The notes under the pieces were generated by a model. That model had not been told where the DNA came from, searched no databases, and saw nothing but the letters and a program-made list of their open reading frames with translations. The translations under genes were made by a program, and so were the position numbers. From assembly GCA_017554145.1 (NCBI GenBank), contig JAFZIZ010000011.1, positions 50,425-114,424 on the forward strand: 64,000 nt of DNA, given 5' to 3'. Position 1 is the stretch's first letter, and every line of letters starts with the position of its first letter. Below are positions 2,901 through 64,000 of this stretch, in pieces. This stretch comes from Prevotella sp. Lineage in GTDB: Bacteria; Bacteroidota; Bacteroidia; Bacteroidales; Bacteroidaceae.

Positions 2901-2924
2901 TTCTTAATTCTTAATTCTTAATTC
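2901..2924. repeat. TTAATTC heptamer tandem repeat
   Basis: Three full TTAATTC units plus a leading TTC, all identical. It fills the space between the divergent mazG and valS -7 boxes, where the -33 element of valS would be. Confidence 0.9.
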
Positions 2925-2936
2925 ACATTTATTTTG

Positions 2937-2944
2937 TACCTTTG
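2937..2944 (+). promoter_or_regulatory. -7 box (TACCTTTG) for valS
   Basis: TACCTTTGCA 20 bp before the valS ATG. The -33 position falls at the edge of the TTAATTC repeat and shows no TTTG there. Confidence 0.65.
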
Positions 2945-2964
2945 CACGTCATTAATAAAAAAGT

Positions 2965-5673
2965 ATGGAATTAGCGAGCAAATATGACCCAAAAGAGGTC
3001 GAATCGAAATGGTATCAGTACTGGCTGGATAACAAACTATTCGCCAGCAAACCTGATGGACGTCAACCCTACACTATTGTGATCCCACCGCCAAACGTTA
3101 CTGGTGTGCTGCACATGGGTCACATGCTGAATAACACGATTCAGGATATCCTGGTACGTAGAGCACGTATGGAGGGCAAGAACGCCTGCTGGGTACCTGG
3201 TACAGACCACGCATCTATCGCTACTGAGGCTAAGGTTGTGAAAAAACTCGCCAATGAGGGCATAAAGAAACATGACCTCACCCGCGAGCAATTCCTTGAG
3301 CATGCCTGGGACTGGACACACGAGCATGGCGGCATCATCCTGAAGCAGTTGCGCCGCCTGGGTGCCAGCTGTGATTGGGATCGTACAGCATTCACTATGG
3401 ACGAGACTCGCTCGAAGAGTGTTATCAAGGTATTTGTAGACCTCTATAACAAGGGACTTATCTATCGCGGTTTACGTATGGTAAACTGGGACCCCAAGGC
3501 GCTGACAGCTCTTTCAACTGAGGAGGTTATCTATAAAGAGGAGCAGAGTCATCTGTTCCATCTGAAATATTATGTAGACAGTCTAGAAAAACTAGATAAT
3601 CTAGGGTCTCTAAAAAAAGAGGGCAATATCATTCACAAAGACGAGAAGGGCTATTATGCTGTAGTAGCTACCACTCGTCCTGAAACCATCATGGGTGATA
3701 CTGCGATGTGCATCAATCCCAAAGACCCTAAGAACCAGTGGTTGAAGGGGCGCAAAGTAATCGTTCCTTTGGTGAATCGTGTTATTCCTGTCATTGAGGA
3801 CCGTTATGTTGACATCGAGTTTGGCACAGGTTGTTTGAAGGTGACCCCTGCTCACGATACTAACGACTATATGTTGGGTAAAACTCACAACCTTGAGACC
3901 ATTGACATCTTTAATCCCGATGGTACCATCAGCGAGCAGAGTCCTATCTACGTAGGTATGGACCGTATGGACTGCCGTAAGCAGATCAGCATGGACCTGC
4001 AGGAAGCAGGACTCATGGAACGCATTGAGGACTATATTAATAAGGTAGGCTACTCTGAGCGTAACCCTGATACAGCGATTGAGCCACGTCTCTCACTGCA
4101 GTGGTTCCTCAAGATGCAACACTTTGCTGATATTGCTCTGCCACCAGTCATGAACGGTGAAATGAAGTTCTATCCCGAGAAGTACAAGAACACCTATAAG
4201 AACTGGTTGGAGAATATTCAGGACTGGTGTATCTCACGTCAGCTTTGGTGGGGACATCGTATTCCTGCCTATTATTACAACGAAAATGACGATTATGTCG
4301 TAGCCGAGACACGCGAGGAGGCCTTAAAACTGGCTCAGCAAAAGGATCCAAAGGTTACGGATGCCGACCTACGTCAGGACGAGGATGCCCTCGATACATG
4401 GTTCTCATCATGGCTGTGGCCTGTATCACTCTTCGACGGCATCAACAACCCTGGCAACGAGGAAATTAAATACTACTACCCCACTTCCGATTTGGTTACG
4501 GCTCCCGATATCATCTTCTTCTGGGTAGCCCGTATGATTATGGCTGGTGAGGAGTATATGGGCACCTTCCCCTTCAAAAACGTCTACTTCACAGGTATTG
4601 TCCGCGACAAACTGGGTCGTAAGATGTCAAAGTCTTTGGGAAACAGCCCCGATCCTATTGAATTGATTGAGAAGTTTGGTGCTGATGGCGTACGTATGGG
4701 TATGATGCTCAGTGCACCTGCCGGTAACGACATCCTCTTCGACGAGGCACTTTGTGAGCAGGGGCGTAACTTCAACAATAAGATTTGGAATGCCTTCCGC
4801 TTGGTTAAAGGCTGGAAGGTTGCAGATATTGAACAGTCTGAGGCTGGTAAGATTGCTACCGCATGGTTTGAGGCTAAACTGCGCCAGACCAATGCCGAGG
4901 TTGACGATCTCTTCAAGAAATATCGTATCTCTGAAGCACTGATGGCTGTCTATAAGCTGTTCTGGGACGAGTTCTCAAGCTGGTATCTCGAGATGGTAAA
5001 GCCCGCCTATATCAATGGCGAGCCTCAACCTATTGATAAACAAACCTTCGACAAGACCCTCGAATTCTTCGAGATTCTACTGAAGATGCTACATCCGTTC
5101 ATGCCATTCATCACGGAGGAACTGTGGCAGCACCTCTATGATCGCAAAGAAGGCGAAAGTATTATGCGCGACAAACTGGAGTTGCCTGCTCCTACTAAGG
5201 CTGACGACAAACTGGCTAATGATATCGAACAAGTGAAGCAAATTGTATCAGGCGTCCGCATGGTTCGCAACCAGAAAAATATCGCGCCTAAAGAGCAGTT
5301 GGAGTTGCAGGTGGTTGGCCAGAACAACTACACCGAGTTTAATGCTGTCATCTCTAAGATGGCGAATCTGAGTGCTATCAACGTTGTAGCCGAGAAGGAT
5401 GCCACCGCATCAGCCTTCATGGTAGGCACCGACGAGTTTGCAGTACCTGTTGGCGACATGATTGACGTAGATGCAGAGATCCAGAAGATGGAGGCTCAGC
5501 TGCAGCATCTCGAAGGTTTCCTGGCAGGCGTCAAGAAGAAACTCAGCAATGAGCGTTTCGTAGCCAATGCACCAGAGCAGGTGGTTGCTTTAGAACGCAA
5601 GAAACAAAGCGACTCAGAAGAGAAGATTGCCGCATTGAAAGAATCAATCGCAGCACTGAAGTCACAAAAATAA
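2965..5673 (+). CDS. valS: Valine--tRNA ligase
   Basis: A 902-residue class I aminoacyl-tRNA synthetase that charges tRNA-Val. The HIGH-type motif is [11 protein letters not shown] (residues 43-53), the editing domain shows [14 protein letters not shown], the [10 protein letters not shown] and [17 protein letters not shown] blocks are intact, and KMSKS is at 553-557. The C-terminus is the coiled-coil arm ([20 protein letters not shown]...). The editing domain contains an unusual insert, [16 protein letters not shown], encoded by four 9-base near-repeats (see 3583-3618). It stands alone, with its own promoter and a strong bidirectional terminator after it. Confidence 0.97.
3583..3618. repeat. 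9-base repeat inside valS (CTAG...)
   Basis: Four 9-mers starting CTA: CTAGAAAAA, CTAGATAAT, CTAGGGTCT, CTAAAAAAA. They encode a 3-residue-periodic run ([12 protein letters not shown]) in a surface insert of the editing domain, and are AT-rich against the surrounding gene. Confidence 0.75.
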
Positions 5674-5683
5674 TAAAGACAAA

Positions 5684-5730
5684 TCAAATAAAGAAGGGAT
5701 GCCCTATTCGGACATCCCTTCTTTATTTGA
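5684..5730. terminator. Bidirectional rho-independent terminator
   Basis: A perfect 18-bp stem (TCAAATAAAGAAGGGATG and its complement) with an 11-nt loop. It lies 10 bp after valS and 10 bp before the stop of the convergent DUF4293 gene, so it serves both. Confidence 0.9.
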
Positions 5731-5740
5731 TCATACTATT

Positions 5741-9611: not shown

Positions 9612-10220
9612 ATGGCTAGAAAATATCTATGGATGATGCTCATGATCAGCATGCCGATGATGAGTTATGCCCAGAACACATGGGAAAACAATACTGTAAA
9701 GGAAGAAGTGGACGTCAATCCCAATCAGAAATATTTAGACGGTGCCATTCCTCTCGTTGATGGAAAGGTGGTATTTACAAAGACCTTTGAGGCTCCAAAC
9801 AAGACTGCTTTTCAGATATACAATATCATTGGCAAGTATTTTCAAGACATCACCAAAGAAGAAAACCAAATCAACAGTAGAATTGTTATAGCCGATACAA
9901 CAACCTACGAGCTCGGTGCTTCTTACGAGGAATGGATGCAGTTCAAAAGCAATATAATCTCTTTAGACCGCACACGCTTTTACTACACTTTGAAAGCTGT
10001 ATGCCAAAACGGTAAAGTATCAGTAGAGATGGCACACATCAGGTATCTGTATGATGAATTCCGCAAGCCTCAGCACTTGAAAGCAGAGGAGTGGATTACT
10101 GATAAGGAAGCACTGAATAAGAAGAAGACAAAACTGATACCTATCACAGGTAAATTCCGTCGCAAGACCATAGACCGCAAAGACGAAATTTTCAAGAATT
10201 TAGAGAACTTGCTGAAATGA
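9612..10220 (+). CDS. Secreted DUF4468 domain protein
   Basis: 202 residues with a methionine-rich Sec signal (MARKYLWMMLMISMPMMSYAQ). The segment from AIPLVDGKVVFTKTFEAPNK to IRYLYDE fits DUF4468, a periplasmic or secreted Bacteroidota domain with a TBP-like fold and no known function. The C-terminal part is basic. The TGA overlaps the ATG of a 57-aa membrane protein (ATGA), which in turn overlaps the porin gene, so the three are translationally coupled. Confidence 0.8.
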   Translation: MARKYLWMMLMISMPMMSYAQNTWENNTVKEEVDVNPNQKYLDGAIPLVDGKVVFTKTFEAPNKTAFQIYNIIGKYFQDITKEENQINSRIVIADTTTYELGASYEEWMQFKSNIISLDRTRFYYTLKAVCQNGKVSVEMAHIRYLYDEFRKPQHLKAEEWITDKEALNKKKTKLIPITGKFRRKTIDRKDEIFKNLENLLK

Positions 10221-10390
10221 GACTTCTTCGCAACATTCTCAACACCATCTTTATCATTGGTGCGCTGATAGGCATGTACCTTTATTATAAAGGAAACACT
10301 GATACAGGTACCATTGTTATCATTGTGGCTATGGCTTTCAAGTTTATTGAGGTTGTCATACGTCTGCTCAAATTAGAGGATAAGCATTGA
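10217..10390 (+). CDS. 57-aa two-pass membrane protein
   Basis: This short frame begins MRLLRNILNTIFIIGALIGM and ends VVIRLLKLEDKH. It has two hydrophobic stretches, LNTIFIIGALIGMYLYY and TIVIIVAMAFKFIEVVI, with a short polar turn (KGNTDTG) between them. The ATG overlaps the upstream TGA as ATGA, and the TGA overlaps the TTG start of the porin as TTGA. Tight coupling on both sides and two clean membrane spans are strong signs of a real gene. I do not know a named family for it. Confidence 0.75.
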   Translation: MRLLRNILNTIFIIGALIGMYLYYKGNTDTGTIVIIVAMAFKFIEVVIRLLKLEDKH

Positions 10391-12759
10391 AAAGAAAACT
10401 ATCCATACTCCTGATAGTCCTGACAGGCATGGTTTCTGCTATGCAGGGACAGGTCTATAATGAAATCAACGAGGATGGAATGATTACTCAGCGCGATGAA
10501 CGTGGCGGAAATTTCAATCCCAACAGACGGGACTCTGTAGAAAACAAGGAGATTCCACGAGGTGTCCACGTATGGACCGTTGACCGCAAGTTTGGAGATG
10601 TTATTCCTGCTGAAGTGGACACGATGCCTCACCTTTATCAGAACACCATCTTCAATACGGGTGTCTTTGGCGAATATAACTCTATCGGCAATAACTATAC
10701 CCCCCGACTGAACCGCATCGCTATTGACCGTCCGCTTATCAACGAATTCTTCTTTACACAACTTTACGACTATACGACAAAAGAACCTGACCAGTTTCTG
10801 TTTGTCAACACGTTGTCGCCATATACAAATATCTCTTACGATAACTGCGGCAACAAGCAGAATGGTGAGGATCATATCGATGCCAAGTTTGCTGTCAATG
10901 CAAACAAACGGTTAGGTTTCGGATTCGACCTCGATTATTATTATGCCCGAGGCTATTATCAGAATCAGAACATCTCCCACTTCCGTGCCTCTTTGTTTGG
11001 TTCTTATATAGGTGACCGCTACCAGATGCATACACTTTTCTCCACCTATCACCGAAAGGCATCAGAGAACGGGGGTATCAGCAATGACAACTATATCACC
11101 CATCCCGAGAGTTTCGACGATGATTATAGCGAAGAAGAGATTCCCACTGAACTCAGTCAGAACTGGAACCGTAACAATTCCATTCACTTATTCCTAACCC
11201 ATCGCTATAATATCGGTTTCTACCGCAAGGTAAAAATGACGGAGGACGAAATCAAAGCCCGTCAGTTTGCTGCAGCATCGGCGAAAGAGAAACGCGACCA
11301 TGAGGAGAGAGATATGAATCAGGACGCTAATCGCAAAGGCAACAGGAAAGGCAATAGCAACAACGTTACGTTAGGACGCCCTGATAATGCACGTATTGCC
11401 GGTGATCTTCCTGCTGACGGAAAGAAACCCGTGGTAACGGATTCCACTCGCATTCTGGTAGACTCTCAGCAGGAGATGGACAGTTTGATTGCAGCCCAAC
11501 AGCGACAAGACTCTATCGATGCGACCATGAAACGCGAATATGTACCTGTTACGAGTTTCATCCATACCCTTGACATCAATAGTCATAGCCGTATCTATCA
11601 AGCCTATAATACGCCTGATGACTACTATTTGAATACATATTATAACTATAACGACGAAGGGAAATACGGCAACGACTCCATCTACGACAAGACCAAACAT
11701 CTGTCGATAAAGAATACGTTTGCCATTGCCTTGCTGGAAGGATTTAACAAATATGCTAAGGCTGGTCTGAAAGCCTTTATCAGTCATGAGTATCGCCGCT
11801 TTGAGATGCCCGACTTAATGGAAGGTTCTGAAGCATACTTCATGAACCGATGGACTGAAGGACATGTCAGTGTGGGCGGACAGTTGGCGAAGACACAAGG
11901 GCGCACACTACATTATAATCTCGGACTCGAGGCATGGGTTGTTGGACCAGATGCCGGTAGTCTGAACATTAATTTCAGCACCGATGTTAACTTCCCGTTG
12001 TTCGGCGATACCGTTCGAATGGCAGCGAAGGCGAACTTCCTCCGCAAACATCCTGTATTCTTCCAATCACAATACCATTCCAAGCATCTCTGGTGGGATA
12101 TCAGCGACCTAAGCAAAGAGACGCGCACACGCATTGAGGGACTTTTCTCCTACGACAAAACACACACTAAGTTGCGTGTGGCCGTTGAGGAAATACAGAA
12201 CTACACATATTTCGGTATGAACTATACTGTTACGCCGCAGGATGTCATCACGACCAGTGGCCGTACGGGATTAACTGCCGGTGTCTATCAAGAGAGCGGT
12301 AATATCAACCTATTAACGGCACAGTTGCGTCAGGATTTCCGTCTAGGTATCCTGAACTGGGAGAACGTCATCACCTACCAGAACTCCAGCAATCAGGATG
12401 TATTGCCAGTTCCTGCACTGAATATCTTCACGAACCTCTATCTGAAATTCAAGATTTCCAGAGTGCTCAGCGTGGAACTGGGTGGTGATATGACCTTCTT
12501 TACCAAGTACTATGCACCCGACTATGTTCCACAGTTAGCGCAGTTTGCCGTGCAGAAGAATCCCGACAGCCGTGTGGAGTTAGGCAATTATCCCTTCATA
12601 GATGTCTATGCCAACTTCCATCTGAAGCGTGCCCGTTTCTTTGTGATGATGAGTCATGTGAATAATGCGTCGGGCAATAAAATGATGTTCCTCACTCCAC
12701 ATTATCCTGTTAATGGCAACGTACTGCGTTTCGGTGTCTCTTGGAATTTCTACAATTGA
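10387..12759 (+). CDS. Putative outer-membrane porin (putative porin family)
   Basis: 790 residues. A signal peptide (MKRKLSILLIVLTGMVSAMQGQ) is followed by VHVWTVDRKFGDVIPAEVD and YNSIGNNYTPRLNRIAIDRP, which I recognise from the Bacteroidales 'putative porin' family (PF14121), then many amphipathic beta-strands rich in aromatic residues, ending FGVSWNFYN with the aromatic C-terminus of outer-membrane barrels. Residues of about 300-385 form a charged, low-complexity loop (KEKRDHEERDMNQDANRKG). The start is a TTG at 10387 that overlaps the upstream stop. The 3' end overlaps the convergent HD gene by 10 bp. Confidence 0.82.
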   Translation: MKRKLSILLIVLTGMVSAMQGQVYNEINEDGMITQRDERGGNFNPNRRDSVENKEIPRGVHVWTVDRKFGDVIPAEVDTMPHLYQNTIFNTGVFGEYNSIGNNYTPRLNRIAIDRPLINEFFFTQLYDYTTKEPDQFLFVNTLSPYTNISYDNCGNKQNGEDHIDAKFAVNANKRLGFGFDLDYYYARGYYQNQNISHFRASLFGSYIGDRYQMHTLFSTYHRKASENGGISNDNYITHPESFDDDYSEEEIPTELSQNWNRNNSIHLFLTHRYNIGFYRKVKMTEDEIKARQFAAASAKEKRDHEERDMNQDANRKGNRKGNSNNVTLGRPDNARIAGDLPADGKKPVVTDSTRILVDSQQEMDSLIAAQQRQDSIDATMKREYVPVTSFIHTLDINSHSRIYQAYNTPDDYYLNTYYNYNDEGKYGNDSIYDKTKHLSIKNTFAIALLEGFNKYAKAGLKAFISHEYRRFEMPDLMEGSEAYFMNRWTEGHVSVGGQLAKTQGRTLHYNLGLEAWVVGPDAGSLNINFSTDVNFPLFGDTVRMAAKANFLRKHPVFFQSQYHSKHLWWDISDLSKETRTRIEGLFSYDKTHTKLRVAVEEIQNYTYFGMNYTVTPQDVITTSGRTGLTAGVYQESGNINLLTAQLRQDFRLGILNWENVITYQNSSNQDVLPVPALNIFTNLYLKFKISRVLSVELGGDMTFFTKYYAPDYVPQLAQFAVQKNPDSRVELGNYPFIDVYANFHLKRARFFVMMSHVNNASGNKMMFLTPHYPVNGNVLRFGVSWNFYN

Positions 12760-14516: not shown

Positions 14517-14533
14517 TCAACCTAACTCCTTTA

Positions 14534-15427
14534 TTATTTAAACAATTGCCTGAATGCTACAGGTATGGGGGTCTCAAACTCCATGCGTTCATGCGTCACG
14601 GGATGTTCCATACATAACAGAAAGGCATGTAGACAAAGGCGGTGCAACGGGTCGTCACCATTCCCATATTTCGTATCCCCACAGACAGGATGCCCCATGT
14701 CGGCAGCATGTACACGAATCTGGTTCTTGCGTCCCGTCTCCAATTTGAACTCCACCAACGAATGATCCGTCGTGCGGTCGAGTACATGGAAATGTGTCAC
14801 GGCATATTTTCCTCCATTATCTACTGGTGATGAGTAGGTGACATACGCCTTATTATCCTTCAACCAATTGGCAATCGTGCCCTCGTTCTCCTCCATCTCA
14901 CCGCTAAGCACTGCCACATAGCGACGATCATACACGATATCATGCCAATAATATTCCAATGTCTGTTCGGTATCCATATCCTTCGCATATACCATCAACC
15001 CCGAAGTGTCACGGTCCAAACGGTGTACCACATGCGCCGTACATTTCTGGCGTGACTTCTTGAAATAGTCATCCAACACTGTCTTCACATTCAGTGATGC
15101 ATGCCCTGCCGCTATGGAAAGAATACCTGCCTGCTTCTCCACCACAATCAACCAGCGGTCTTCATACACGATTTTCAGCCAACGACTCTTGAACTGCGTC
15201 TGATTGCGCTTCGTTTTACTCACGGCAACCTTCATCCCCGGCTGCAAAGGGAAATCAAACTGACTCACCGTCTTGCCATTCACGCGGATACCACGTCCCT
15301 GCAAAGTCAACTTAATCTTATTGCGACTCTGGTGTACGTTCTCCAAAAGGAACTCCAACAGTGGCTGTTCTTTCGTGACCACAAGATGGTCGTATTCTCC
15401 TTGTTGATTATATGGATTATATCTCAT
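14534..15427 (-). CDS. RluA/RluD-family rRNA pseudouridine synthase
   Basis: 297 residues. The S4-like N-terminal part is followed by the catalytic loop VVHRLDRDTSGLMVYAKD, whose aspartate attacks uridine, and by RKNQIRVHAADMGHPVCGD (motif III). It therefore isomerises uridine in rRNA or tRNA; the exact site cannot be read. The ATG at 15427 (MRYNPYNQQGEYDH) is chosen because a -7 box lies 9 bp upstream; the upstream extension to 15556 would cross that promoter. The downstream 58-aa gene is probably cotranscribed. Confidence 0.9.
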   Translation of the reverse strand: MRYNPYNQQGEYDHLVVTKEQPLLEFLLENVHQSRNKIKLTLQGRGIRVNGKTVSQFDFPLQPGMKVAVSKTKRNQTQFKSRWLKIVYEDRWLIVVEKQAGILSIAAGHASLNVKTVLDDYFKKSRQKCTAHVVHRLDRDTSGLMVYAKDMDTEQTLEYYWHDIVYDRRYVAVLSGEMEENEGTIANWLKDNKAYVTYSSPVDNGGKYAVTHFHVLDRTTDHSLVEFKLETGRKNQIRVHAADMGHPVCGDTKYGNGDDPLHRLCLHAFLLCMEHPVTHERMEFETPIPVAFRQLFK

Positions 15428-28169: not shown

Positions 28170-28174
28170 AAAAG

Positions 28175-30778: not shown

Positions 30779-30780
30779 AA

Positions 30781-30808
30781 CTCTTAATTCTTAACTCTTA
30801 ATTCTTAA
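30781..30808. repeat. CTCTTAA/TTCTTAA heptamer repeat between serC and serA
   Basis: Four 7-base units alternating CTCTTAA and TTCTTAA. They fill the serC-serA gap and touch the serC stop codon (30809-30811). Confidence 0.9.
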
Positions 30809-43234: not shown

Positions 43235-43262
43235 GTTAAGAATTAAGAGATAAGAGATAATA
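43235..43262. repeat. RTTAAGA/GATAAGA heptamer repeat between ruvX and def
   Basis: Four 7-base units (GTTAAGA, ATTAAGA, GATAAGA, GATAATA) that fill most of the ruvX-def gap. Confidence 0.85.
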
Positions 43263-46102: not shown

Positions 46103-47106
46103 ATAATATTCACTTCTGGGTGTATCTCTATACCAAACTTCTCTTTGACGTCACGCTGGATAGCCTCACACAAAGCAACTATCTCCTTACCTGTAGCACC
46201 ACCACGATTCACCAATACCAATGCCTGCTTGTCGTGAACACCGGCTCGTCCCATCGACTTACCTTTCCATCCGCATTGGTCAATCATCCAACCAGCAGGA
46301 ATCTTCTCATGTGCCGCATCTACAGTATAATGAGGCATTCCCTCATATTGTGCAGCGAGTTGTTCGTATTTCTCCTTCGTGACGATAGGATTCATGAAGA
46401 AACTACCTGCATTACCCATCACTTTCGGGTCAGGAAGTTTGGCATTACGGATATCAATGATAACCTGTCGCAGTTGTGAGGCAGAAAGATTCACAATCCC
46501 CTTTCGCTCCAGTTCTGCACGGATATTCCCATAGTCGAGGTGAGGTTGGAAAACAGTCTGCATCTGATAGGTGACATGGGTGATGAGATATTGATTCTTC
46601 CACTCCCCTTTGAAACGACTCTGGCGATAAGCATATTCGCACTCCTCGTTCTGGAAGATGCGGATATCACCTGTAGCAATCTCTACAGCCTCTATCTCCG
46701 TGATAAGGTCTTTCACCTCCACCCCATACGCTCCGATATTCTGTACGGCACTTGCTCCTACATCACCAGGTATCAAGGAAAGGTTCTCCGCTCCGTAGAG
46801 TTGATGCTGAACGGCATAGTCAACCACATCATCCCATATTTCTCCGCTACCGCAGATGAGTTGACCTTCGACCTTTGACCTTTGACAATCCTTAATGGCA
46901 GAATGTACTACGATTCCATCAAAGTCCTGCGTCAATAAGAGATTACTACCCCCACCTATTATTATATATGGAAGAGATGACTCACGTAAGATAGCAGCCA
47001 CCTGCTGTGCCTCTTCTATCGACGCATATTCCAAGAAGCGACGACATTTAGCGTCAATGCCGAAGGTATTATGCTGTAAGAGAGAGTAATTGCTGAGATC
47101 CTTCAT
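46099..47106 (-). CDS. murB: UDP-N-acetylmuramate dehydrogenase
   Basis: 335 residues. It reduces UDP-GlcNAc-enolpyruvate with NADPH and FAD. FAD-binding is seen in YIIIGGGSNLLLTQD and ENLSLIPGDVGASAVQNIGA; the catalytic segment GNAGSFFMNPIV and C-terminal GWMIDQCGWKGKSMG follow. The ATG at 47106 (MKDLSNYSLLQHNTFGID) is chosen; a longer frame from 47136 would overlap the DUF4348 gene. The loop KDCQRSKVEGQ is heptamer-encoded. Operon order DUF4348-murB-MBL. Confidence 0.95.
   Translation of the reverse strand: MKDLSNYSLLQHNTFGIDAKCRRFLEYASIEEAQQVAAILRESSLPYIIIGGGSNLLLTQDFDGIVVHSAIKDCQRSKVEGQLICGSGEIWDDVVDYAVQHQLYGAENLSLIPGDVGASAVQNIGAYGVEVKDLITEIEAVEIATGDIRIFQNEECEYAYRQSRFKGEWKNQYLITHVTYQMQTVFQPHLDYGNIRAELERKGIVNLSASQLRQVIIDIRNAKLPDPKVMGNAGSFFMNPIVTKEKYEQLAAQYEGMPHYTVDAAHEKIPAGWMIDQCGWKGKSMGRAGVHDKQALVLVNRGGATGKEIVALCEAIQRDVKEKFGIEIHPEVNII
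46861..46888. repeat. TTGACCT heptamer tract inside murB
   Basis: TTGACCT, TCGACCT, TTGACCT, TTGACAA. Coding strand AGGTCAA, giving KDCQRSKVEGQ in a surface loop before LICGSGEIWDD. Confidence 0.85.
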
Positions 47107-47108
47107 CG

Positions 47109-47948
47109 TCAAGTCACCAGTTTCTCCAGTTTCCACTTCCCACCATCGTGCTTGAAGGTCAGTTCTATCTCCATACCGTTGGCAATACCACGCAGCACGA
47201 AGACCTTCCTTCCTGTCTCTTTCTGAGGTGCTCCATACACGATATTATATATCATTCCAGAAGGAAGTTCTGGCGCAAAAGCCTCCCACGTATCAGGGGT
47301 TATCACTCCTTCCATCTGACTGAAGTCGTCATCAGGGTCGGGACCAACAAATTTCACGTTGTCCATCAGGTGTTTCGACTGATACTCAGGACTGGCGGCA
47401 AACTGCTCGTAGAACTCCAGGAAAGAGGCATTGCGTGATTCGCTCAAAGGCATGTGGACAACCTGTTGTAACATCCATAAACCATTGACGCGATCGAAGA
47501 TATACTGTTTGACAGTCTTCCCATGCAGATAGATCTTCTCCACCACCGCATGCTCGATATTGGTTTCCTTCACTGCCTCCATTTCCTTCTCGCTATCAAA
47601 CAACAAGGTGTAGAAGTCTTGCTTCATGAAGAAATACTCCATCTGCCACTCTCCTTTCTTGAGGTAACTGACTTCATCGCCACGCTTAACGAGCAAAGGG
47701 AACTTGATACGAGAGGATTGCAGGGTGCGATTAGCGGCAAAATTGAAAATGAAATCGTCGAACAGTTCATCTGCTGCCTTGGGTACTGAAGCATCCTCTG
47801 CTATCTCCTCCTCAAGCGATGCGGCAACAGTATCTGCCTGTTGTGTCGAATCGGCAGTCTCCTCTACCTCGCTGCTTCCCGTCTTATTACCTTGACAGGC
47901 GGAAAACAACAGTACTACCACAGAAAAAACAAACCAAAAACGTTTCAT
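47109..47948 (-). CDS. DUF4348 lipoprotein
   Basis: 279 residues with a lipoprotein signal (KRFWFVFSVVVLLFSAC), then an acidic, threonine-rich linker (VEETADSTQQADTVAASLEE) and a domain starting DELFDDFIFNFAANRTLQSS and ending ELTFKHDGGKWKLEKL. I recognise this as the Bacteroidota-restricted DUF4348 family. Function unknown. The murB ATG is 2 bp after its stop, so it heads the operon with murB. Confidence 0.8.
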   Translation of the reverse strand: MKRFWFVFSVVVLLFSACQGNKTGSSEVEETADSTQQADTVAASLEEEIAEDASVPKAADELFDDFIFNFAANRTLQSSRIKFPLLVKRGDEVSYLKKGEWQMEYFFMKQDFYTLLFDSEKEMEAVKETNIEHAVVEKIYLHGKTVKQYIFDRVNGLWMLQQVVHMPLSESRNASFLEFYEQFAASPEYQSKHLMDNVKFVGPDPDDDFSQMEGVITPDTWEAFAPELPSGMIYNIVYGAPQKETGRKVFVLRGIANGMEIELTFKHDGGKWKLEKLVT

Positions 47949-48001: not shown

Positions 48002-48029
48002 AATTGAGAATTGACAATTGATAATTGAT
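48002..48029. repeat. AATTGAN heptamer repeat in a divergent promoter
   Basis: AATTGAG, AATTGAC, AATTGAT, AATTGAT between the -7 boxes of the DUF4348 operon and pheS, covering both -33 positions. It shares its word with the TPR signal-peptide tract. Confidence 0.9.
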
Positions 48030-48039
48030 AATTTTTTTG

Positions 48040-51788: not shown

Positions 51789-52181
51789 ATGTTTGACAAG
51801 AATACATATATCCGGCGACGGGCAGAACTGAAGAAACTGGTGGGAGAAGGCGTTATCGTACTCTTCGGTAATAACGAAGCACCTTGCAACTATCCTGCCA
51901 ACAGTTATGCGCCCATGCGTCAGGATTCTTCTTTCCTCTATTATTTCGGACAACACCGTGATGGACTGGTGGGTGTGATTGATGTTGACAACGACGAAGA
52001 GTGGCTCTTTGGTGATGATATTGACGTAGAGGACATCGTTTGGATGGGCTTTACACCAACGGTCAGCGACCTCGCTGCCGAGGTAGGTATCAGTAAGACA
52101 GCCCCGATGAAATCTCTCACCTCTCACCTCTCACCTCTAAGAACATCCACTTCCTTCCCCCCTATCGCCACGATACGATGA
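51789..52181 (+). CDS. Aminopeptidase P, N-terminal fragment (frame broken)
   Basis: 130 codons. MFDKNTYIRRRAELKKLVGE to ISKTAPMK is the N-terminal creatinase-like domain of an Xaa-Pro aminopeptidase (VLFGNNEAPCNYPANSYAPM, QDSSFLYYFGQ). After residue about 110 it reads through a TCTCACC tract and then out of frame to a stop. The downstream frame (52178-53176) supplies the metallopeptidase half of the same protein. Together they would be about 463 residues, the family length. Confidence 0.75.
   Translation: MFDKNTYIRRRAELKKLVGEGVIVLFGNNEAPCNYPANSYAPMRQDSSFLYYFGQHRDGLVGVIDVDNDEEWLFGDDIDVEDIVWMGFTPTVSDLAAEVGISKTAPMKSLTSHLSPLRTSTSFPPIATIR
52115..52138. repeat. TCTCACC heptamer tract at the aminopeptidase P frame break
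   Basis: Three identical TCTCACC units plus TCT. The upstream frame enters and the correct downstream frame (KNIHFLPPYRHDT) leaves shifted by one base. One added unit or two lost units restores one continuous frame. Confidence 0.95.
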
Positions 52182-54411: not shown

Positions 54412-56139
54412 ATGCACTATCAATGGAATTACGAACCACCTACACCCGAGAGACAACAGGCTGCTAAAGAGTTGGCGGAGAAGATCGGCATGAGTCCGAT
54501 CGTCGCCGAACTACTCATAGCACGCGGCATCAAGACGGAATCGGCAGCCAAGCGGTTCTTCAGGCCGATGATGAACGAACTCATCGATCCCTTCCTGATG
54601 AACGATATGGACATAGCCGTAGACCGACTGAATGATGCGATGGGACGCAAAGAGCGTATCATGGTGTATGGCGACTACGACGTCGACGGGTGTACTGCGG
54701 TGGCACTGGTGTACAAGTTTCTACAGCAGTTCTATTCCAATATCGAATACTATATCCCCAACCGTGAAGAGGAGGGATATGGTGTCAGCATCAAGGGAAT
54801 AGACTATGCAAAGGAAACTGGTGTAAAACTGATTATCGTACTCGACTGCGGCATCAAGGCCGTAGACGAAATATCCTATGCGAAAGAGCAGGGCATCGAC
54901 TTCATTATCTGCGACCACCACGTCCCCGACGAGGTGATGCCGCCTGCTGTCGCTATCCTGAATCCCAAACGCGAAGACTCTACCTATCCTTTCAAAGACC
55001 TCTGCGGATGTGGTGTGGGCTTCAAACTGATGCAGGCGTTTGCCAAGAACAACGGTATCCCCTTTGCTCGGTTGATTCCCCTACTCGACCTCTGTGCCGT
55101 CAGCATTGCTGCTGACCTCGTGTCAGTAACAAGTGAGAACCGCATCCTCGCCTTCCATGGTCTGAAACAACTGAACCAGAGCCCGTCTATCGGTCTGAAG
55201 GCAATCATTGAGATCTGCGGACTGACAGGTCGTGAACTGACCATGAGCGATATCGTCTTCAAGATCGGTCCTCGTATCAATGCCAGCGGACGCATGCAGA
55301 ACGGTAAGGAAGCCGTAGAACTGTTGGTGGAGCGTGACTTGCAGAAAGCACTCACTGAGGCGAACCGCATCAACGAGTATAACGAGCAGCGTAAGGATGT
55401 CGACAAGGAGATGACCAAGGAGGCAAACGAGATTGTGGCACGTCTGGAAAGTCAGCGCCACATGCAGGCTATCGTGCTCTACGACGAGGGATGGAAGAAA
55501 GGAGTGGTAGGCATCGTTGCCTCACGCTTGACAGAAATGTATTTCCGTCCTACCGTCGTACTCACCATTATTGACGGCATCGCTTCCGGCTCCGCCCGTT
55601 CTGTGGCAGGCTTCGATGTCTACGACGCCATCAAGTCGTGTCGCGACCTGTTGGAGAACTTCGGAGGACATACCTATGCTGTCGGACTGACATTGCGTCA
55701 GGAGAATATTCCTGAGTTCCGTCGTCGCTTCCAAGAGTATGTCAGTCATCATATCCTACCCGAGCAAACGATGGCTGCATTGGACATCGACATGGAGGTA
55801 GATTTCAAGGATATCTCTCGCCGACTGATGAACGACCTGCGCCGTCTGGCACCTCATGGACCCAGCAATCCAAAACCGTTATTCCTGACGCGTAACGTCT
55901 TCGACTACGGAACATCAAAGGTCGTCGGACGCCATCAGGAGCATATCAAACTGGAACTCGTCGACTCGAAATCAGCAATGGTGATGAATGGTATCGCCTT
56001 CGGACAGAGTGCCGAGGCGCACTATATCAAGTCGAAACACTCGTTTGACATCGTCTACACCATCGAGGAGAACACCTACAAGCGTGGTGAAGTTCAGTTA
56101 CAGATAGAAGACATTATGCCTTCGGCAAATGAGAAATGA
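54412..56139 (+). CDS. recJ: Single-stranded-DNA exonuclease RecJ
   Basis: 575 residues. The DHH phosphoesterase motifs are GDYDVDGCTAVALVY (about 85), LDCGIKAVDE, ICDHHVPDEVMPPA and DLCAVSIAADLV; the DHHA1 part has GVVGIVASRLTE and ASGSARSVAGFDVY with FGGHTYAVGLTL. It degrades ssDNA 5'-3' in recombination and repair. It ends in a heptamer tract (GAAATGA) that carries both its stop and the recQ start. Confidence 0.95.
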   Translation: MHYQWNYEPPTPERQQAAKELAEKIGMSPIVAELLIARGIKTESAAKRFFRPMMNELIDPFLMNDMDIAVDRLNDAMGRKERIMVYGDYDVDGCTAVALVYKFLQQFYSNIEYYIPNREEEGYGVSIKGIDYAKETGVKLIIVLDCGIKAVDEISYAKEQGIDFIICDHHVPDEVMPPAVAILNPKREDSTYPFKDLCGCGVGFKLMQAFAKNNGIPFARLIPLLDLCAVSIAADLVSVTSENRILAFHGLKQLNQSPSIGLKAIIEICGLTGRELTMSDIVFKIGPRINASGRMQNGKEAVELLVERDLQKALTEANRINEYNEQRKDVDKEMTKEANEIVARLESQRHMQAIVLYDEGWKKGVVGIVASRLTEMYFRPTVVLTIIDGIASGSARSVAGFDVYDAIKSCRDLLENFGGHTYAVGLTLRQENIPEFRRRFQEYVSHHILPEQTMAALDIDMEVDFKDISRRLMNDLRRLAPHGPSNPKPLFLTRNVFDYGTSKVVGRHQEHIKLELVDSKSAMVMNGIAFGQSAEAHYIKSKHSFDIVYTIEENTYKRGEVQLQIEDIMPSANEK

Positions 56140-56160
56140 GAAATGAGGAATGAGGAATTT
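56126..56160. repeat. GAAATGA heptamer tract across the recJ/recQ junction
   Basis: CAAATGA, GAAATGA, GAAATGA, GGAATGA, GGAATTT. Each GAAATGA unit holds an ATG and a TGA in different frames. The recJ TGA is 56137-56139 and the recQ ATG 56143-56145. Confidence 0.9.
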
Positions 56161-59983: not shown

Positions 59984-60050
59984 AATTGAAAATTGATAAT
60001 TAATTCTATAACCTTTAACCGTTAACCTTTAACCGTTAACCTTTAACCGT
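59984..60050. repeat. AATTGAN and TAACCTT/TAACCGT heptamer tracts
   Basis: At 59984-60004 three units (AATTGAA, AATTGAT, AATTAAT). At 60009-60050 six perfect heptamers alternate TAACCTT and TAACCGT, i.e. three 14-mers. The DUF5675 stop (60036-60038) lies within the second tract, so its final residues TVKG are repeat-coded. Confidence 0.9.
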
Positions 60051-60485
60051 TATAAATACTCCTTCTCCCTGTCTCTTCGCTTCCACGATAAGTTTCTTCA
60101 GGTTGAATACAGTGGTGGGACTATTCACGATGCGCCCTTTCTGGTAGTATTGACCGATAATCATCCCATGTCTGAAACTAGTCACCTTCTTACCGACATA
60201 GATTCGTACCGTTTTGTAGCAACGTACCTTCAGTAGTTGTGGCAGCCACTTATCACGACGCTTGTCGTAGGTAATCACCATTGGGTATCGCCCTGATGGG
60301 ATGGCTCGTTTCTTTCTCCAGCGTTTGGTGCCATAGCCCATCTTAACGTATTTCGGCTCGATCGTGTCGCAGAAGTACTTCTTTACTTCTCCAGCCAGAA
60401 ACTCATCGTCCACTCGCTGCATGACACTCAGACGACCCAATGTGAATTTCTCGGTTTTTTCTATTCTTTCTAATATAAGTTCCAT
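60036..60485 (-). CDS. DUF5675 family protein
   Basis: 149 residues starting MELILERIEKTEKFTLGRLS, then KYFCDTIEPKYVKMG, RAIPSGRYPMVITYDKRRDK, LLKVRCYKTVRIYVGKK and IGQYYQKGRIVNS. These blocks fit DUF5675, seen in phages and mobile elements of Bacteroidota; function unknown. It sits 6 bp after the primase-like gene. The C-terminus lies inside a TAACCGT heptamer tract, so the stop position depends on repeat number. Confidence 0.75.
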   Translation of the reverse strand: MELILERIEKTEKFTLGRLSVMQRVDDEFLAGEVKKYFCDTIEPKYVKMGYGTKRWRKKRAIPSGRYPMVITYDKRRDKWLPQLLKVRCYKTVRIYVGKKVTSFRHGMIIGQYYQKGRIVNSPTTVFNLKKLIVEAKRQGEGVFITVKG

Positions 60486-60491: not shown

Positions 60492-62786
60492 TTACTTTTT
60501 TACTTTTGTGTAATTGTGATTTGTGATTTGTGATACATACCCTCTGGATTTCCACATGTCAATCATGTGTTTTGCCCCTTTCGAGTCTTTACCCTGCCGT
60601 CTTCTGATGTTAATCGCATCTTGTATGGTGAATTCATCAGGCAAAAGGTCTAATAGATTCTGAGGACCAGGCTTCGGCTTCACTTCTGTATAGTCAGCCT
60701 TTTCAATGGCTTCCCCAAAGAACTGCATCTTACACCAGAGATCGTATTTCAACGACCATCTAACGAAGTCCTCGATGGCTCTGTCCCATTTATAGTCGTT
60801 AGCCACATAGAGCAGACAACCTTTGAGCCATGCAATGACGTTGGCACGGAAAGATAGGTTTTCATATACTCGCGATTGGCTCAACCTTGAAAACTCTGCG
60901 TTCTCTTCCACCATCTTTTTTGCCAGTGCAAAAGCCTGCGGACATTCGATTTCACCAGTTGCCTTGACCAGTCTTTCAATGTAGGGACGAAGTTCTTCTT
61001 CAAAGGCTGCATCGTATGTGCCATAGACAGGCATTTCGGCTCCGATTTCCCTTTCGGGAATCGTACAGAAGTTGATACGGCTGATAGGTCCATCGGTAAG
61101 GACATTACGGAAGTATCGTTGTCCTTTGAGAATCGTCGTTGCTGCATTCCAATTGAAACGGATGCATACCTTCTCGGTTACTGATTGCGTACCTACGCGA
61201 GTCTGACCGTATCTGTTGCCAGGGTCAAAGGCAAGGCACATGATTTGAAACTGCTGACCACCTTTACCTGAGCCTTTCAGCGCATCGAACTGGTCAATCT
61301 CATTCATCTTCGTATAGAGGAAATGACCGTCTGCCTCTGCCATACGCATCACGAAGGCTGGGTTTGTCATGTCAGGGTCAACCTCTTGGATGATAAGCCC
61401 TTCAGGACGTTGCCGTTTGTCTTTGTTGGCACCCTTTGAACTGACCTCTTGTTTCCACTGACGTTCACGCTCTAAGTTCTCTTCATCCCTTCTGCGTATA
61501 TCAGCCATGATGTAGTTGATAGGTTGGGATATACAATCCTTACCGGCACCTGTGCCTGCCATCAAGACGTTCATCAAGGTTGCCTCGTGGCGAACATTGT
61601 CGATATAGCGGAAAGACACTTTGAAGAAATGAGCAGCCAAGGCAGGAAAGACAGCATGAGCCACCGCAGGTTTATAGACATCTGGAGTCTTCGACACCAA
61701 GAGCGCAATTAGTTTAGGCAGTTTCTTCGGCATTTCAGGAGGCAACTCGGGTTCGGCTGTTGGCTCTTGGCTATTAGCCGTTGGCTCTGTGAGGTCGTTC
61801 ACTATCGATTGGATTTCCTTTGAGAAGCCTTTGGGCGTCTCTTTGCAGGCAGAGTCCACGATGCTTGTCAATTCCTGTTCTGACAGTCCCAGTCGGGGCA
61901 TTACTGCCAATAGCGTTTCTCGCTTGTTGTCGCAGATAGAACGCAGATTCACAGCCAGTTTATGCAGTTTCACGTTCCTTTCGCCTTCTGCTGGCATTCC
62001 CCCGTTCCTATTCCAATACTCCTTGATAATCTCGGAATAAGGAATCTCTCGGAACTTCAATTCTTCCATTCTTCCATTCTTCCGCTCGACTTTGTCGCTT
62101 TGATCCTTTAGGTCAAAGAATTCTTCAACCCTTCCATTCTTCAATTTTTCAATTCTTCCATTTTTCCATTTTTCAATTCTTCCATCAATCGTGAGACCAC
62201 GATTGAGGAACGCTTCATGTCTGATTTTCAGTTCCTCTTCTGAAAGTACCTGATACCACTTTTCAGAGCGATAGATCTCTGAGCCTAAATCCGTGATATA
62301 AATAAATCTCTCAGGGGTGATGCAACTCTCATCGAAGGGAACACCAATAGCCTCACAATATGCACGTTGAGTTTCCTCAATCGTCATACCTACTGGCATT
62401 CTCACATCGATATGCAGTTTCTTTCGGGCTGAGTAGTCCATGTGTAGCAGCATACCTTTCCAGATACCTTCCTGCTTGTTCAACTCTTGGGCTGCCTTGA
62501 TGGCACCCTCTACCTGAGAGGCATCATCGATGTCAATACACGTCTGGAAGGTGAAAGCCTCGGGGATGATACATTTCTGCTGACGTTTGTTGTCCTTAAA
62601 CTCGGTATAGTGAGGACAACGGAAAGGCAGTTTCTTTTTGGCTTCGTCATCACCTTTGCGGATACGTTCTACCAATTCCTTGAGCCAGTTCTCTTTGATC
62701 AGCATGTCATATACTGACAGTTCCTGTTGGAAGGCTGCCCCCTTGTTGGGGCAGCACTTTCCGTTCATAGCGATGAGTGATATCAT
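60492..62786 (-). CDS. VirE_N / DUF3987 primase-like protein
   Basis: 764 residues. The N-terminal half (VYDMLIKENWLKELVERIRK, FTFQTCIDIDDASQVEGAI, LLHMDYSARKKLHIDVRM) is a VirE N-terminal-like domain. After a low-complexity linker comes a DUF3987 region with a P-loop in LMAGTGAGKDCISQP (about 405-420), and AFDPGNRYGQTRVG. In Bacteroidales such proteins form mobile-element replication cassettes. The linker (KWKNGRIEKLKNGRVEE, LTEPTANSQEPTAEPE) is built from 8- and 7-base repeats. Its ATG overlaps the upstream stop. Confidence 0.85.
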   Translation of the reverse strand: MISLIAMNGKCCPNKGAAFQQELSVYDMLIKENWLKELVERIRKGDDEAKKKLPFRCPHYTEFKDNKRQQKCIIPEAFTFQTCIDIDDASQVEGAIKAAQELNKQEGIWKGMLLHMDYSARKKLHIDVRMPVGMTIEETQRAYCEAIGVPFDESCITPERFIYITDLGSEIYRSEKWYQVLSEEELKIRHEAFLNRGLTIDGRIEKWKNGRIEKLKNGRVEEFFDLKDQSDKVERKNGRMEELKFREIPYSEIIKEYWNRNGGMPAEGERNVKLHKLAVNLRSICDNKRETLLAVMPRLGLSEQELTSIVDSACKETPKGFSKEIQSIVNDLTEPTANSQEPTAEPELPPEMPKKLPKLIALLVSKTPDVYKPAVAHAVFPALAAHFFKVSFRYIDNVRHEATLMNVLMAGTGAGKDCISQPINYIMADIRRRDEENLERERQWKQEVSSKGANKDKRQRPEGLIIQEVDPDMTNPAFVMRMAEADGHFLYTKMNEIDQFDALKGSGKGGQQFQIMCLAFDPGNRYGQTRVGTQSVTEKVCIRFNWNAATTILKGQRYFRNVLTDGPISRINFCTIPEREIGAEMPVYGTYDAAFEEELRPYIERLVKATGEIECPQAFALAKKMVEENAEFSRLSQSRVYENLSFRANVIAWLKGCLLYVANDYKWDRAIEDFVRWSLKYDLWCKMQFFGEAIEKADYTEVKPKPGPQNLLDLLPDEFTIQDAINIRRRQGKDSKGAKHMIDMWKSRGYVSQITNHNYTKVKK
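60513..60533. repeat. TTTGTGA heptamer tract at the primase 3' end
   Basis: ATTGTGA, TTTGTGA, TTTGTGA encode SQITNHN near the C-terminus (YVSQITNHNYTKVKK). Confidence 0.8.
61755..61789. repeat. GGCTNTT heptamer tract inside the primase gene
   Basis: GGCTGTT, GGCTCTT, GGCTATT, AGCCGTT, GGCTCTG. Encodes EPTANSQEPTAEP, nearly the same peptide as TPTAKSQEPKA of the DEAD helicase. Confidence 0.9.
62054..62085. repeat. TCTTCCAT octamer tract inside the primase gene (first)
   Basis: ACTTCAAT, TCTTCCAT, TCTTCCAT, TCTTCCGC. Encodes ERKNGRMEELKF with 8-residue periodicity relative to the second tract. Confidence 0.85.
62122..62185. repeat. TCTTCCAT octamer tract inside the primase gene (second)
   Basis: Eight 8-base units mixing TCTTCCAT, TTTTCCAT, TCTTCAAT and TTTTCAAT. 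Encodes EKWKNGRIEKLKNGRVEEF, an 8-residue repeat of the linker. Confidence 0.9.
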
Positions 62787-63115
62787 ACCAGACCTCCTTC
62801 CATTTCTTCACCACGCTCATGCAGGAACTCCGCCATCTCACGACTCTCAGCCAACAGGGCGACGGCATCCCTGCACATACCTATGTTCTTGGGAACGCTA
62901 ATCCACATCTTACGACGCTGGCGACTCTCCTTCAGCCATCCGTTGGTACTGCGATACAGCATCACGTCTTGGGATTTATGGTTTCTTGACAGACGGTTAT
63001 ACGGCTTGAAAGTTATCTCACCCGTCCACTGGTCACGATGCAGTGAACCTTCTACGCACTTGCCCGATACAAGGGCTTTCAATGTCTCTTCATTAATTTG
63101 AATGTACTTTTGCAT
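62783..63115 (-). CDS. 110-aa unknown island protein
   Basis: Starts MQKYIQINEETLKALVSGKC, then LHRDQWTGEITFKPYNRLS, YRSTNGWLKESRQRRKMWIS and a helical, acidic C-terminus (LLAESREMAEFLHERGEEME). No signal or membrane segment; the basic middle could bind nucleic acid. The TGA overlaps the primase ATG (ATGA). A -7 box lies about 139 bp upstream with a long leader between. I know no family name. Confidence 0.65.
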   Translation of the reverse strand: MQKYIQINEETLKALVSGKCVEGSLHRDQWTGEITFKPYNRLSRNHKSQDVMLYRSTNGWLKESRQRRKMWISVPKNIGMCRDAVALLAESREMAEFLHERGEEMEGGLV

Positions 63116-63253
63116 TTTTTCGAGTTTTTGTGAGGAAGAAGCATCTGAAACGCTGGCCAGCTTATCTCATGAGATTCCTTCAGCTCACTTCACTCGGGTT
63201 AATAAATAATGTTACTTGTGCATCTTAAAGCCTTTGCTTCTTGATTGCGACGG

Positions 63254-63261
63254 CAAAGGTA
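63254..63261 (-). promoter_or_regulatory. -7 box (TACCTTTG) for the island operon
   Basis: TACCTTTGCC on the minus strand, about 139 bp before the ATG at 63115. The leader (63116-63250) contains TCTCATGAGA and CTGGCCAG palindromes but no recognisable riboswitch. Confidence 0.6.
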
Positions 63262-63265
63262 AATA

Positions 63266-63301
63266 CAAAAAAAAAGGTGCATGAAACAACGACATGCACC
63301 T
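63266..63301 (-). terminator. Terminator after the partial island gene
   Basis: On the minus strand AGGTGCATG with a 9-nt loop and CATGCACCT, followed by nine T. It closes the gene at 63352-64000 just before the next promoter. Confidence 0.85.
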
Positions 63302-63346
63302 CTGTAGGTTTTTCTGTAGGTTCTGTAGGTTTTTCTGTAGGTTTTT
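63302..63346. repeat. CTGTAGG repeats after the partial island gene
   Basis: CTGTAGG at 63302, 63314, 63323 and 63335, spaced 12, 9 and 12 bp. On the minus strand this is a K-P-T-E-type frame if translated, but it lies after the TAA of the upstream gene. Confidence 0.85.
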
Positions 63347-63351
63347 GTAAG

Positions 63352-64000
63352 TTACGAGGTTCCCACCGCTTCTTTATAGGCATACACCAGTCGCATCACA
63401 CGAGCCTTGACTCCATTTTGTTCCCATTTACTGACATTCAGGCGCATATAGGGGTTGTTTCTGAAAGCGTTCGACAGTAGCCCCTCCGAGCATTGGAAAT
63501 CACGCTCAAACTGGCTCATACTATTGGCATACCCGTAATAGTCACGACAGACACAGAAGATGACTGCCAACGAACTGTCGCTCCAGAAATAATCGCGAAC
63601 ACTGTTCACGCTCTTCACCATCGTCTGCAAGTCAGGCTGACTTGCGTCTACTTCCTCCTTCAATTTTTCAGTTTTTCCATCCTTCCATTCTTCATGATAG
63701 TGGTTGTCCCCATTCACCCTCAGTATCAGTTGTCCAATCTGTCCTATATGTACGTTACTATGTTGTTTTTCATGCTTATCTTCCTTTTCTTTTAAATACG
63801 ACAACGCACTGACAAACTCCTCCAGATTCTGAGTCGCGTCTGCTTTGTATTCCTTCAGATTAACATGCCAGTTATATTGGTCAGCATCGTCGTTGATTAC
63901 CTGTTCCAGTGTATCTCTCACTTCTTTGGTCTCTTCCTGCCAGTCTTTGTTTTTCTCTATCATCACGAAGCAGGGATATAGTCTGGTGTCTATCAGAATA
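63352..64000 (-). CDS. Unknown island protein, partial
   Basis: The frame stays open from the TAA at 63352 through the window edge (codons ILIDTRLYPCFVMIEKNKDW at the edge), so the true start is outside; the start-like GTG-ATG at 63966 is internal. About 215 residues are seen: VRDTLEQVINDDADQYNWHV, EKEDKHEKQHSNVHIGQIGQ, an 8-base-coded stretch (EEWKDGKTEKLKEEV) and SQFERDFQCSEGLLSNAFRN. No domain recognised. Confidence 0.65.
   Translation of the reverse strand, partial: ILIDTRLYPCFVMIEKNKDWQEETKEVRDTLEQVINDDADQYNWHVNLKEYKADATQNLEEFVSALSYLKEKEDKHEKQHSNVHIGQIGQLILRVNGDNHYHEEWKDGKTEKLKEEVDASQPDLQTMVKSVNSVRDYFWSDSSLAVIFCVCRDYYGYANSMSQFERDFQCSEGLLSNAFRNNPYMRLNVSKWEQNGVKARVMRLVYAYKEAVGTS
63657..63696. 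repeat. TTTTCCAT octamer tract inside the partial island gene
   Basis: CCTTCAAT, TTTTCAGT, TTTTCCAT, CCTTCCAT, TCTTCATG. Encodes EEWKDGKTEKLKEE; same words as the primase linker. Confidence 0.85.

Follow-up and report, generated by a model that had tools for sequence, protein, structure and literature searches.

A stretch of 64,000 nucleotides from a draft Prevotella genome (contig 11, bases 50425-114424; hereafter the window) carries an excess of short tandem arrays with a unit of seven bases, and the same excess reaches through the Prevotella relatives and across much of the genus. I propose that these heptamer arrays, and a smaller number of octamer arrays, are made by slippage and template switching and then filtered by selection, a reading to which I give a probability of about 0.55. 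Why bacteria prefer seven-base units is a question raised in 2007, and the passages of the literature cited below give no settled answer. Prevotella makes the cause testable, since the genus has hundreds of sequenced species, which range from those with many arrays to those with none found in 80 kb. The arrays also rewrite intergenic DNA and loops in conserved proteins.

Period-seven arrays in the window and the genus

Tandem Repeats Finder, with a cut-off score of at least 30, gives 16 period-7 rows in the window. A stricter scan (score at least 10, with order-4 Markov shuffles as control) finds 13 period-7 arrays as against 0.1 in the shuffles, along with four of period 8 and none of period 5 or 6. 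Perfect period-7 runs of at least 10 number 11, as against 0.0 in shuffles; there are three such runs of period 8 and none of period 6. An earlier note on this DNA had counted about twenty tracts, which was right as to the heptamer excess and slightly generous as to the number. The words it listed are present (TTAATTC, AATTGAC, TCTCACC, GTGGAGT, TTGACCT, GAAATGA and TAACCTT, with GGCTNTT present but weak), as are the periodic peptides it read from translations, and its octamer tracts are real, four of them standing in the table below. A nine-base tract that it placed in valS (3583-3604) has the lowest listed Tandem Repeats Finder score (30), is absent from the strict scan and is unconfirmed.

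The genome from which the window comes (G000, 2.80 Mb) is 83.5% complete and 5% contaminated. It has two mutL genes, on contigs 22 and 38, which fits the reported contamination. By the identity of one protein, the closest named loci belong to the rumen-type Prevotellaceae bins RUG14585 (90%) and RUG11506 (88%) and to Prevotella sp. tf2-5 (80%). In the sample of this genome, made up of the window and 40 further stretches (750,919 bases in all), there are 110 arrays of period 7, 13 of period 8, four of period 9 and none of period 5 or 6. The claim that seven is enriched over neighbouring lengths is borne out. The stronger claim, of a strict seven-base ruler, is unsupported: arrays of period 8 are roughly a tenth to a third as frequent as those of period 7. 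The earlier interpretation as a whole is partly supported.

Eighty named loci from relatives (1.42 Mb) hold 124 arrays of period 7, 38 of period 8, 11 of period 9, two of period 6 and none of period 5, counts that take in orthologous arrays more than once. Within the genus, G245 has 14 arrays and G075 has 11, each in 60 kb; G016 and G010, both of them 99% complete, showed none in 80 kb and 40 kb respectively. The other families of the order gave one period-7 array in ten stretches (170 kb). Several stretches of G009, G007 and G022 were chosen because an earlier search had indicated array matches there, and in G009 the effect is plain, with 30 arrays in the first 80 kb as against one in the following 60 kb. 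Two related viral contigs from IMG/VR (L232 and L240, of 6.7 and 10.5 kb) hold 10 and 14 heptamer arrays, with inverted pairs in several gene gaps; there the first arm often begins at or just past the upstream stop codon.

The window also contains 22-bp tandem repeats (29663-29734), of a kind found as well in L073, L084, L101, L103, L109, L124 and L127 and called 22 times in the 1.42 Mb of named loci. Many have an internal palindrome, and their sequences differ among genomes. I considered whether they are part of the heptamer class and rejected the idea; they belong to another, palindromic family.

The lower edge, the words and the paired arms

The preference for seven has a sharp lower edge. 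In the own-genome sample and the named loci together, a third copy accompanies 2 of 1618 perfect doublets of unit 5, 1 of 1157 of unit 6, 64 of 478 of unit 7 and 11 of 90 of unit 8. The step between six and seven is about 150-fold. Period-7 doublets include pieces of decayed arrays (192 in the own genome, as against 53.5 expected), so these figures are shares, not rates, and the doublets are not independent seeds. Bare 7-bp doublets are not in excess outside arrays (25, as against 30 in shuffles that were trained on unmasked sequence and so put the expectation somewhat high), and the bias therefore seems to lie in growth. Of two comparison sets, the genus genomes low in arrays give 0 of 18, a circular result because the set was picked after its stretches showed no period-7 array; the ten other-family stretches, which were not so picked, give 1 of 13. 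The idea that decayed arrays fill the intergenic DNA was also tried and rejected: masked autocorrelation in the own genome is 27.3% at lag 7 and 28.4% and 28.2% at lags 6 and 8.

The earlier note took the words to be free in sequence, which they are not. The common signal in array words is 4.74 bits in the own genome (4.04 +/- 0.15 for shuffled letters) and 4.97 bits in the named loci (4.11 +/- 0.13). Unlinked arrays of the own genome share a unit in 7.3% of pairs, a share that is 0.75% for random heptamers; between genomes it is 5.7%, orthologous arrays included. The excess of common signal and the sharing of units mean that the words are constrained and largely common to the genus. Their variety is nonetheless large, with 53 distinct consensus words in the 110 own arrays; G009 is an extreme case, where AACTGTC accounts for 23 of 30.

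Some orthologous sites keep an array but change its word, as seen in single gaps between species that are 85-93% identical. L075, L088 and L097, whose flanks are 79-92% identical, have different arrays in the same gap at three separate gaps, apparently just upstream of an ATG (one of the three tracts in L075 has unit 9, and two of the three in L097 are shorter or more degenerate). One gap holds a TTCAACG-type array in L079 and an AGCCAAA-type array in L080, the two being 93% identical. The same occurs within proteins. One loop of MurB holds array-like sequence built of differing words in the window, L056, L057 and L058/L061. An ortholog table of the MBL-fold hydrolase shows one turn lengthened in 22 of its 91 rows, a count that omits L115 (one extra codon) and the misparsed L090; several of the insertions are visibly built of heptamers and some are not, and the insert of L058 is absent from its close relative L061. 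In RelA, where 15 of 30 loci were parsed, the window itself among them, the clean array of the window corresponds to degenerate heptamer-like sequence of nearly equal length in several relatives.

Change in copy number, which the earlier note had offered as a check, was seen once as a step of exactly one unit. The comparison covered different species and near-identical viral contigs, and its flank mapping requires well-matched edges, which favours unchanged arrays. Of 21 orthologous period-7 comparisons, 13 are identical, five are changed at equal length and single cases differ by +7, -3 and -9. The exact one-unit change (+7) belongs to one array, in L058/L061. Among three period-8 comparisons, two are identical and one is changed by +9.

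In relatives, arrays often come as inverted partners. Nearby pairs of the same period in the named loci (n = 22) comprise 16 inverted complements, two direct pairs and four that are neither, as compared with an inverted share of 6.4% among pairs taken at random. The 16 are not independent, since a single orthologous gap supplies seven of them and a second gap two. In the viral contigs the corresponding numbers are 28, 20 and 21. In the gap between the peptide deformylase gene and a TPR-like gene, a strong inverted repeat is present in 19 of 65 regions, in 10 arm families, and 14 of the 19 have arms with a period of 7 or 8 on both sides, with one more periodic on one side. None of 60 shuffled regions from other gaps reaches its score. 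Arm matches arm at 0.89 identity within a species, a value high partly by construction because a strong inverted repeat was the criterion for choosing the regions; the first arm compared between species gives 0.61, and random strings give 0.49. If the putative starts are right, the second arm seems in several species to be part of the sequence that encodes a signal peptide, and the loop to contain an ATG. The same gap in the window's genome has a single array. Strong inverted repeats occur in 15 of 157 randomly drawn co-directional gaps (a draw from which the deformylase gap was not excluded) and in 0 of 60 shuffles.

Placement of the arrays

Arrays occupy gaps, stop and start codons and the interiors of genes, as the earlier note had it. 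The arrays of the own genome are enriched in noncoding DNA, with 37 intergenic and 18 at gene edges in 89 kb of it, as against 55 of the 110 in 661 kb of coding DNA. (Gene boundaries are those of a simple purpose-made caller, and arrays counted as within genes are by construction without an in-frame stop.) Leaving out one promoter gap common to many loci, 145 arrays lie in gaps: 125 where both genes run the same way (0.93/kb), 17 in divergent gaps (0.32/kb) and three in convergent gaps (0.08/kb). Co-directional gaps hold 60% of gap DNA, which gives p=6e-12; the own genome alone, with 35 of 43, gives p=0.003. Both p-values treat orthologous and clustered arrays as independent. Within co-directional gaps of the own genome, the median distance of an array from the upstream stop is 0 nt and that from the downstream start 33 nt.

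Among the genes with in-frame arrays are those for Mfd, RelA/SpoT and MurB, which pass curated cut-offs, and those for the MBL-fold hydrolase, a TonB-type receptor and a UDP-GlcNAc epimerase-like protein, whose scores fall below them. The mfd gene contains six arrays and two similar 67-bp blocks, 89.6% identical. The sense strand is C-rich in 43 of 54 in-gene arrays of the own genome. A fixed strand orientation, as for Rho sites, was considered and rejected: the sense-strand skew varies among genomes.

Arrays also occur at some promoter-like sites, and the flanks of own arrays are enriched for GCAAAGGTA, which I take to be the Bacteroidota -7 element. The 11-mer TTTGCTACCGC directly follows heptamer-like tracts at several apparently unrelated places (L085, L104, L073, L096, L097, L102, L116, L204 and L212). 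A general link between arrays and motifs like TTTGCTACCGC was rejected, as a called array lies within 60 bp of such a motif in 5 of 8 cases in the named loci, 3 of 6 in the genus, 1 of 5 in the own genome and 0 of 1 in the viral contigs. In L167 (G009; 14523-15215 and 16848-16950) there are [AGTTGAC]n blocks spaced by about 8-10 bases, such as AGGTTTATTT, which recur in neighbouring gene gaps. In the window, the octamer arrays at 28146-28174 and 29518-29535, near inverse complements, bracket gene 28341-29444.

Table 1. Tandem arrays of the window, with positions counted from its first base, and the genes or gaps in which they lie
Feature	Position	Context
(AATTCTT)n (word also TTAATTC)	2899-2924	divergent gap upstream of valS
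valS, valine--tRNA ligase gene	2965-5673	
period-8 array, AAAGGTAA/AAAAGTAA type	28146-28174	over end of gene 23673-28169
(CTCCATT)n	28679-28699	within gene 28341-29444
period-8 array TTTACCTT	29518-29535	near inverse complement of the 28146 array, 1.3 kb apart
(TTCTTAA/CTCTTAA)n	30774-30810	spans junction of genes 29861-30778 and 30809-31876
(GGTGAGA)n (TCTCACC word, minus strand)	36598-36626	in frame in RelA/SpoT gene 36146-38362, minus strand; peptide SHLSPLTTHLT
(AATTGAC)n, perfect, 34 bp	42615-42648	gap between peptide deformylase gene and TPR-like gene
(TTAAGAA/ATAAGAG)n	43236-43260	co-directional gap
(GTGGAGT)n	45588-45620	in frame in MBL-fold hydrolase gene 45317-46102, minus strand (family score below curated cut-off); peptide HSTLHTPHSS
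(TTGACCT)n	46863-46886	in frame in MurB gene 46099-47136, minus strand
(AATTGAT/AATTGAC)n	48002-48033	divergent gap, between GCAAAGGTA and TACCTTTGC, which resemble promoter elements
(CTCTCAC)n (word also TCTCACC), perfect	52114-52138	near end of gene 51789-52181
(AAATGAG)n (word also GAAATGA)	56127-56158	over recJ stop (54412-56139) and next start (56143)
(TAACCTTTAACCGT)n, 14-bp higher-order unit of two heptamers (word TAACCTT)	60009-60052	
(TTGTGAT)n	60514-60534	within gene 60492-62786
(GGCTCTT)n, degenerate	61755-61788	peptide TANSQEPTA; 70% matches, weak; absent from strict scan
period-8 array (CTTCCATT)n	62055-62083	within gene 60492-62786
period-8 array (AATTCTTC)n	62119-62185	within gene 60492-62786

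How the arrays may arise, and what is already known

Replication or repair DNA synthesis may make and remake the arrays through slipped re-annealing and short-range template switching. About seven paired bases would be the minimum needed for a displaced 3' end to prime again one unit back, and chance doublets of unit 7 or 8 would thus be able to grow; seven would dominate because seeds become rarer with length. The lower edge, the direct arrays and the step of exactly one unit would follow from slipped re-annealing. Direct arrays would then represent template switching on the same strand and inverted arms switching to the opposite one, as suggested by the words that turn over at fixed sites, the block copied within mfd and the inverted partner arrays that in relatives are far above chance. 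Purifying selection may explain much of the placement: arrays that break genes would be removed, those in gaps, stop-free frames and loops would be left. In some species hairpins in operon mRNAs may have a role.

More particular causes were considered and rejected. Loss of MutS is not the cause, since a MutS match above the cut-off is present in 23 of 24 relatives and in 145 of the 149 genomes from the genus. The four below it are G009 and G189, with weak matches only, and G184 and G190, with partial or broken matches; G245 and G075, which have MutS, are as dense in arrays as G009 and G189. MutL is found in all six genomes tested, and the window's genome has both proteins. In L273 (G313, contig 11, about 10214-10440) an insertion of about 226 bp, in frame and with a 21-bp period, lies in a MutS gene. 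As for DinB (PF00817), it has no match in the window's genome, yet it is present in array-rich G007 and G009, and so it explains nothing.

Several observations weigh against slippage and switching as the whole account. Perfect doublets of period 9 never have a third copy (0 of 55), below the prediction of a pure threshold; a minimum pairing of about seven with dwindling chance seeds of longer unit fits most of the data and fits this less well. Neutral slippage gives no account of why convergent gaps are nearly empty, nor does slippage alone explain a consensus in the words beyond their composition. Nearby pairs in the other genus stretches are mostly not inverted (8 inverted, 24 direct, 15 neither). 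In the own genome none of 17 is (3 direct, 14 neither), and an inverted arm accompanies 2 of 120 arrays; with so few inverted pairs there, the evidence for paired arms comes from the relatives.

One could suppose a physical ruler, in which DNA polymerase contacts seven bases and so favours slipped loops of one 7-nt unit. It would explain why period 7 stands far above 6 and 8, and it accounts for the empty period 9 better than a pure threshold does. I consider it unlikely nevertheless, given that period 8 is common in some genomes (12 arrays to 15 of period 7 in G189, five to two in L057) and that a period-15 tract at 48058 of the window resembles 7 plus 8.

It is rather improbable that the arrays are chiefly functional operon elements, arms of intergenic mRNA hairpins whose sequence is free provided that the arms pair. 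The emptiness of convergent gaps, which slippage and selection leave unexplained, does keep a function in operons in play, and the crowding of arrays into co-directional gaps, the ten arm families at one gap, the inverted pairs of the viral contigs and the strong inverted repeats in randomly drawn gaps all speak for one. Against the idea stand the 46 of 65 regions without a strong inverted repeat at the deformylase gap, the scarcity of inverted arms in the own genome and the half of own arrays that lie within genes. Paired arms are obtainable by template switching without selection, and the p-values for placement count related arrays as independent.

A bolder version may be put forward, tentatively, for a clade of Prevotella: that operon gaps carry a structural element free in sequence, composed of two inverted arrays of a 7- or 8-base word. 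Its arms would be kept complementary while the word is replaced wholesale between species, and the loop would sometimes enclose what is probably the start codon of the following gene. The single arrays of the window and others like them would be remnants or half-elements, and the structure rather than the sequence would be inherited, renewed by template switching. If this doubtful proposal is true, the paired form is a structure that persists while its sequence is replaced.

Might the arrays be written by a templated or mobile source, be it a dispersed repeat element or a reverse transcriptase of the telomerase-like or diversity-generating kind? The sharing of units among unlinked own arrays, the tracts that end at a shared TTTGCTACCGC in some species and the composite arrays in neighbouring gaps of G009 give the idea what appeal it has. 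Words are shared between genomes at close to the level within one, however, and a reverse transcriptase is rejected as the source in the window's genome, which has 0 RVT_1 matches at 83.5% completeness. G007 and G022 also bear arrays and have none. G010, arrayless in 40 kb, has six RVT_1 matches, yet array-rich G009 has two. I find such a source very improbable.

Still harder to credit is the notion of contingency loci, hypermutable repeats selected for phase variation. Tracts do cover stops and starts, and a gain or loss of one unit shifts the frame because seven is not a multiple of three. The housekeeping genes mfd, relA and murB, however, carry arrays in frame, and little changes between species: 13 of the 21 comparisons above are identical (some may be viral), and viral pairs 97-99.9% alike yielded no changed case. 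Assembly artefact in metagenome bins, which the draft state, contamination and duplicate mutL of the window's genome might have suggested, can be set aside, since arrays occur in tf2-5 and tc2-28 (L123 and L076), records not marked as bins, and in the one- and two-contig genomes G133, G362 and G282 (7 arrays in 140 kb).

Slippage and template switching, then, remain the reading I prefer, and they can be set beside systems already described. Among the matches listed, a literature search gave no paper on such arrays in Prevotella; subscription papers are poorly covered, which makes this weak evidence of absence. Cyanobacteria have heptamer repeats that go by the name of STRR, in which a few word families are dispersed over one genome. 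Passages of PMC4692102 describe three heptanucleotide repeats in the cyanobacterium Calothrix, likewise dispersed families within one genome, and the likeness that the earlier note saw to cyanobacterial repeats finds some support; Prevotella differs in having far more words, in having them also within genes, and in its phylum.

The class itself, and the excess of seven, are already known, judging from passages of the papers cited here. Mrazek (2007) is credited in PMC4679880 with having found heptanucleotide units to be the most frequent repeat category in most genomes, and with suggesting that seven is perhaps a polymerase contact length. Those long simple sequence repeats (Mrazek 2007, via PMC4679880 and PMC4692102) show the same seven-base excess, scattered among bacteria, with slippage suggested as its source. 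Prevotella, which the passages do not name, differs in its many words per genome, in-place replacement of words, in-frame arrays in conserved genes and, in relatives, inverted arms. The passages of a later repeat survey (PMC4060949) likewise do not mention the genus.

The earlier note knew of no such system in Bacteroidota, a point that is unsupported: direct repeats of the heptamer TAACTGA are reported from Beggiatoaceae, Cyanobacteria and five Bacteroidetes in the passages of PMC4679880. Those arrays stand near start codons or over upstream stops, the own co-directional arrays nearer the stop than the start; in both, some are in open reading frames, and near relatives may be without them. 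They are built on one word, however, with similar heptamers rarely repeated, as against the 53 words of the own sample, where TAACTGA is not among the 25 commonest of 117 units (the word was not searched for by itself). The GGGNATC and GGGGA(C/T)T repeats of Xanthomonas and Nostoc (passages of PMC4692102) likewise form many arrays per genome, of variable length, with the prominent ones at different genes in two species; they are G-rich with quadruplex potential, whereas the Prevotella words are not of that type.

The paired arms may have parallels of their own. Paired palindromic repeats of the REP/BIME kind have a conserved palindromic unit dispersed in one genome; the arms at the deformylase gap differ between species, and an inverted arm accompanies 2 of 120 own arrays. 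Template switching is known to make and mend hairpin stems, as in RNAs (passages of PMC8794818), and in such hairpins (PMC8794818, PMC8604942) complementary arms are likewise created or mended together. Those events are in RNA genes or yeast genes; here the arms are tandem heptamers, in one operon gap, across many species. What is new in Prevotella is the step from six to seven, the repertoire of many words, their replacement in place, the arrays that lie in frame within conserved genes, the bias towards co-directional gaps and, in relatives, inverted arms of differing words.

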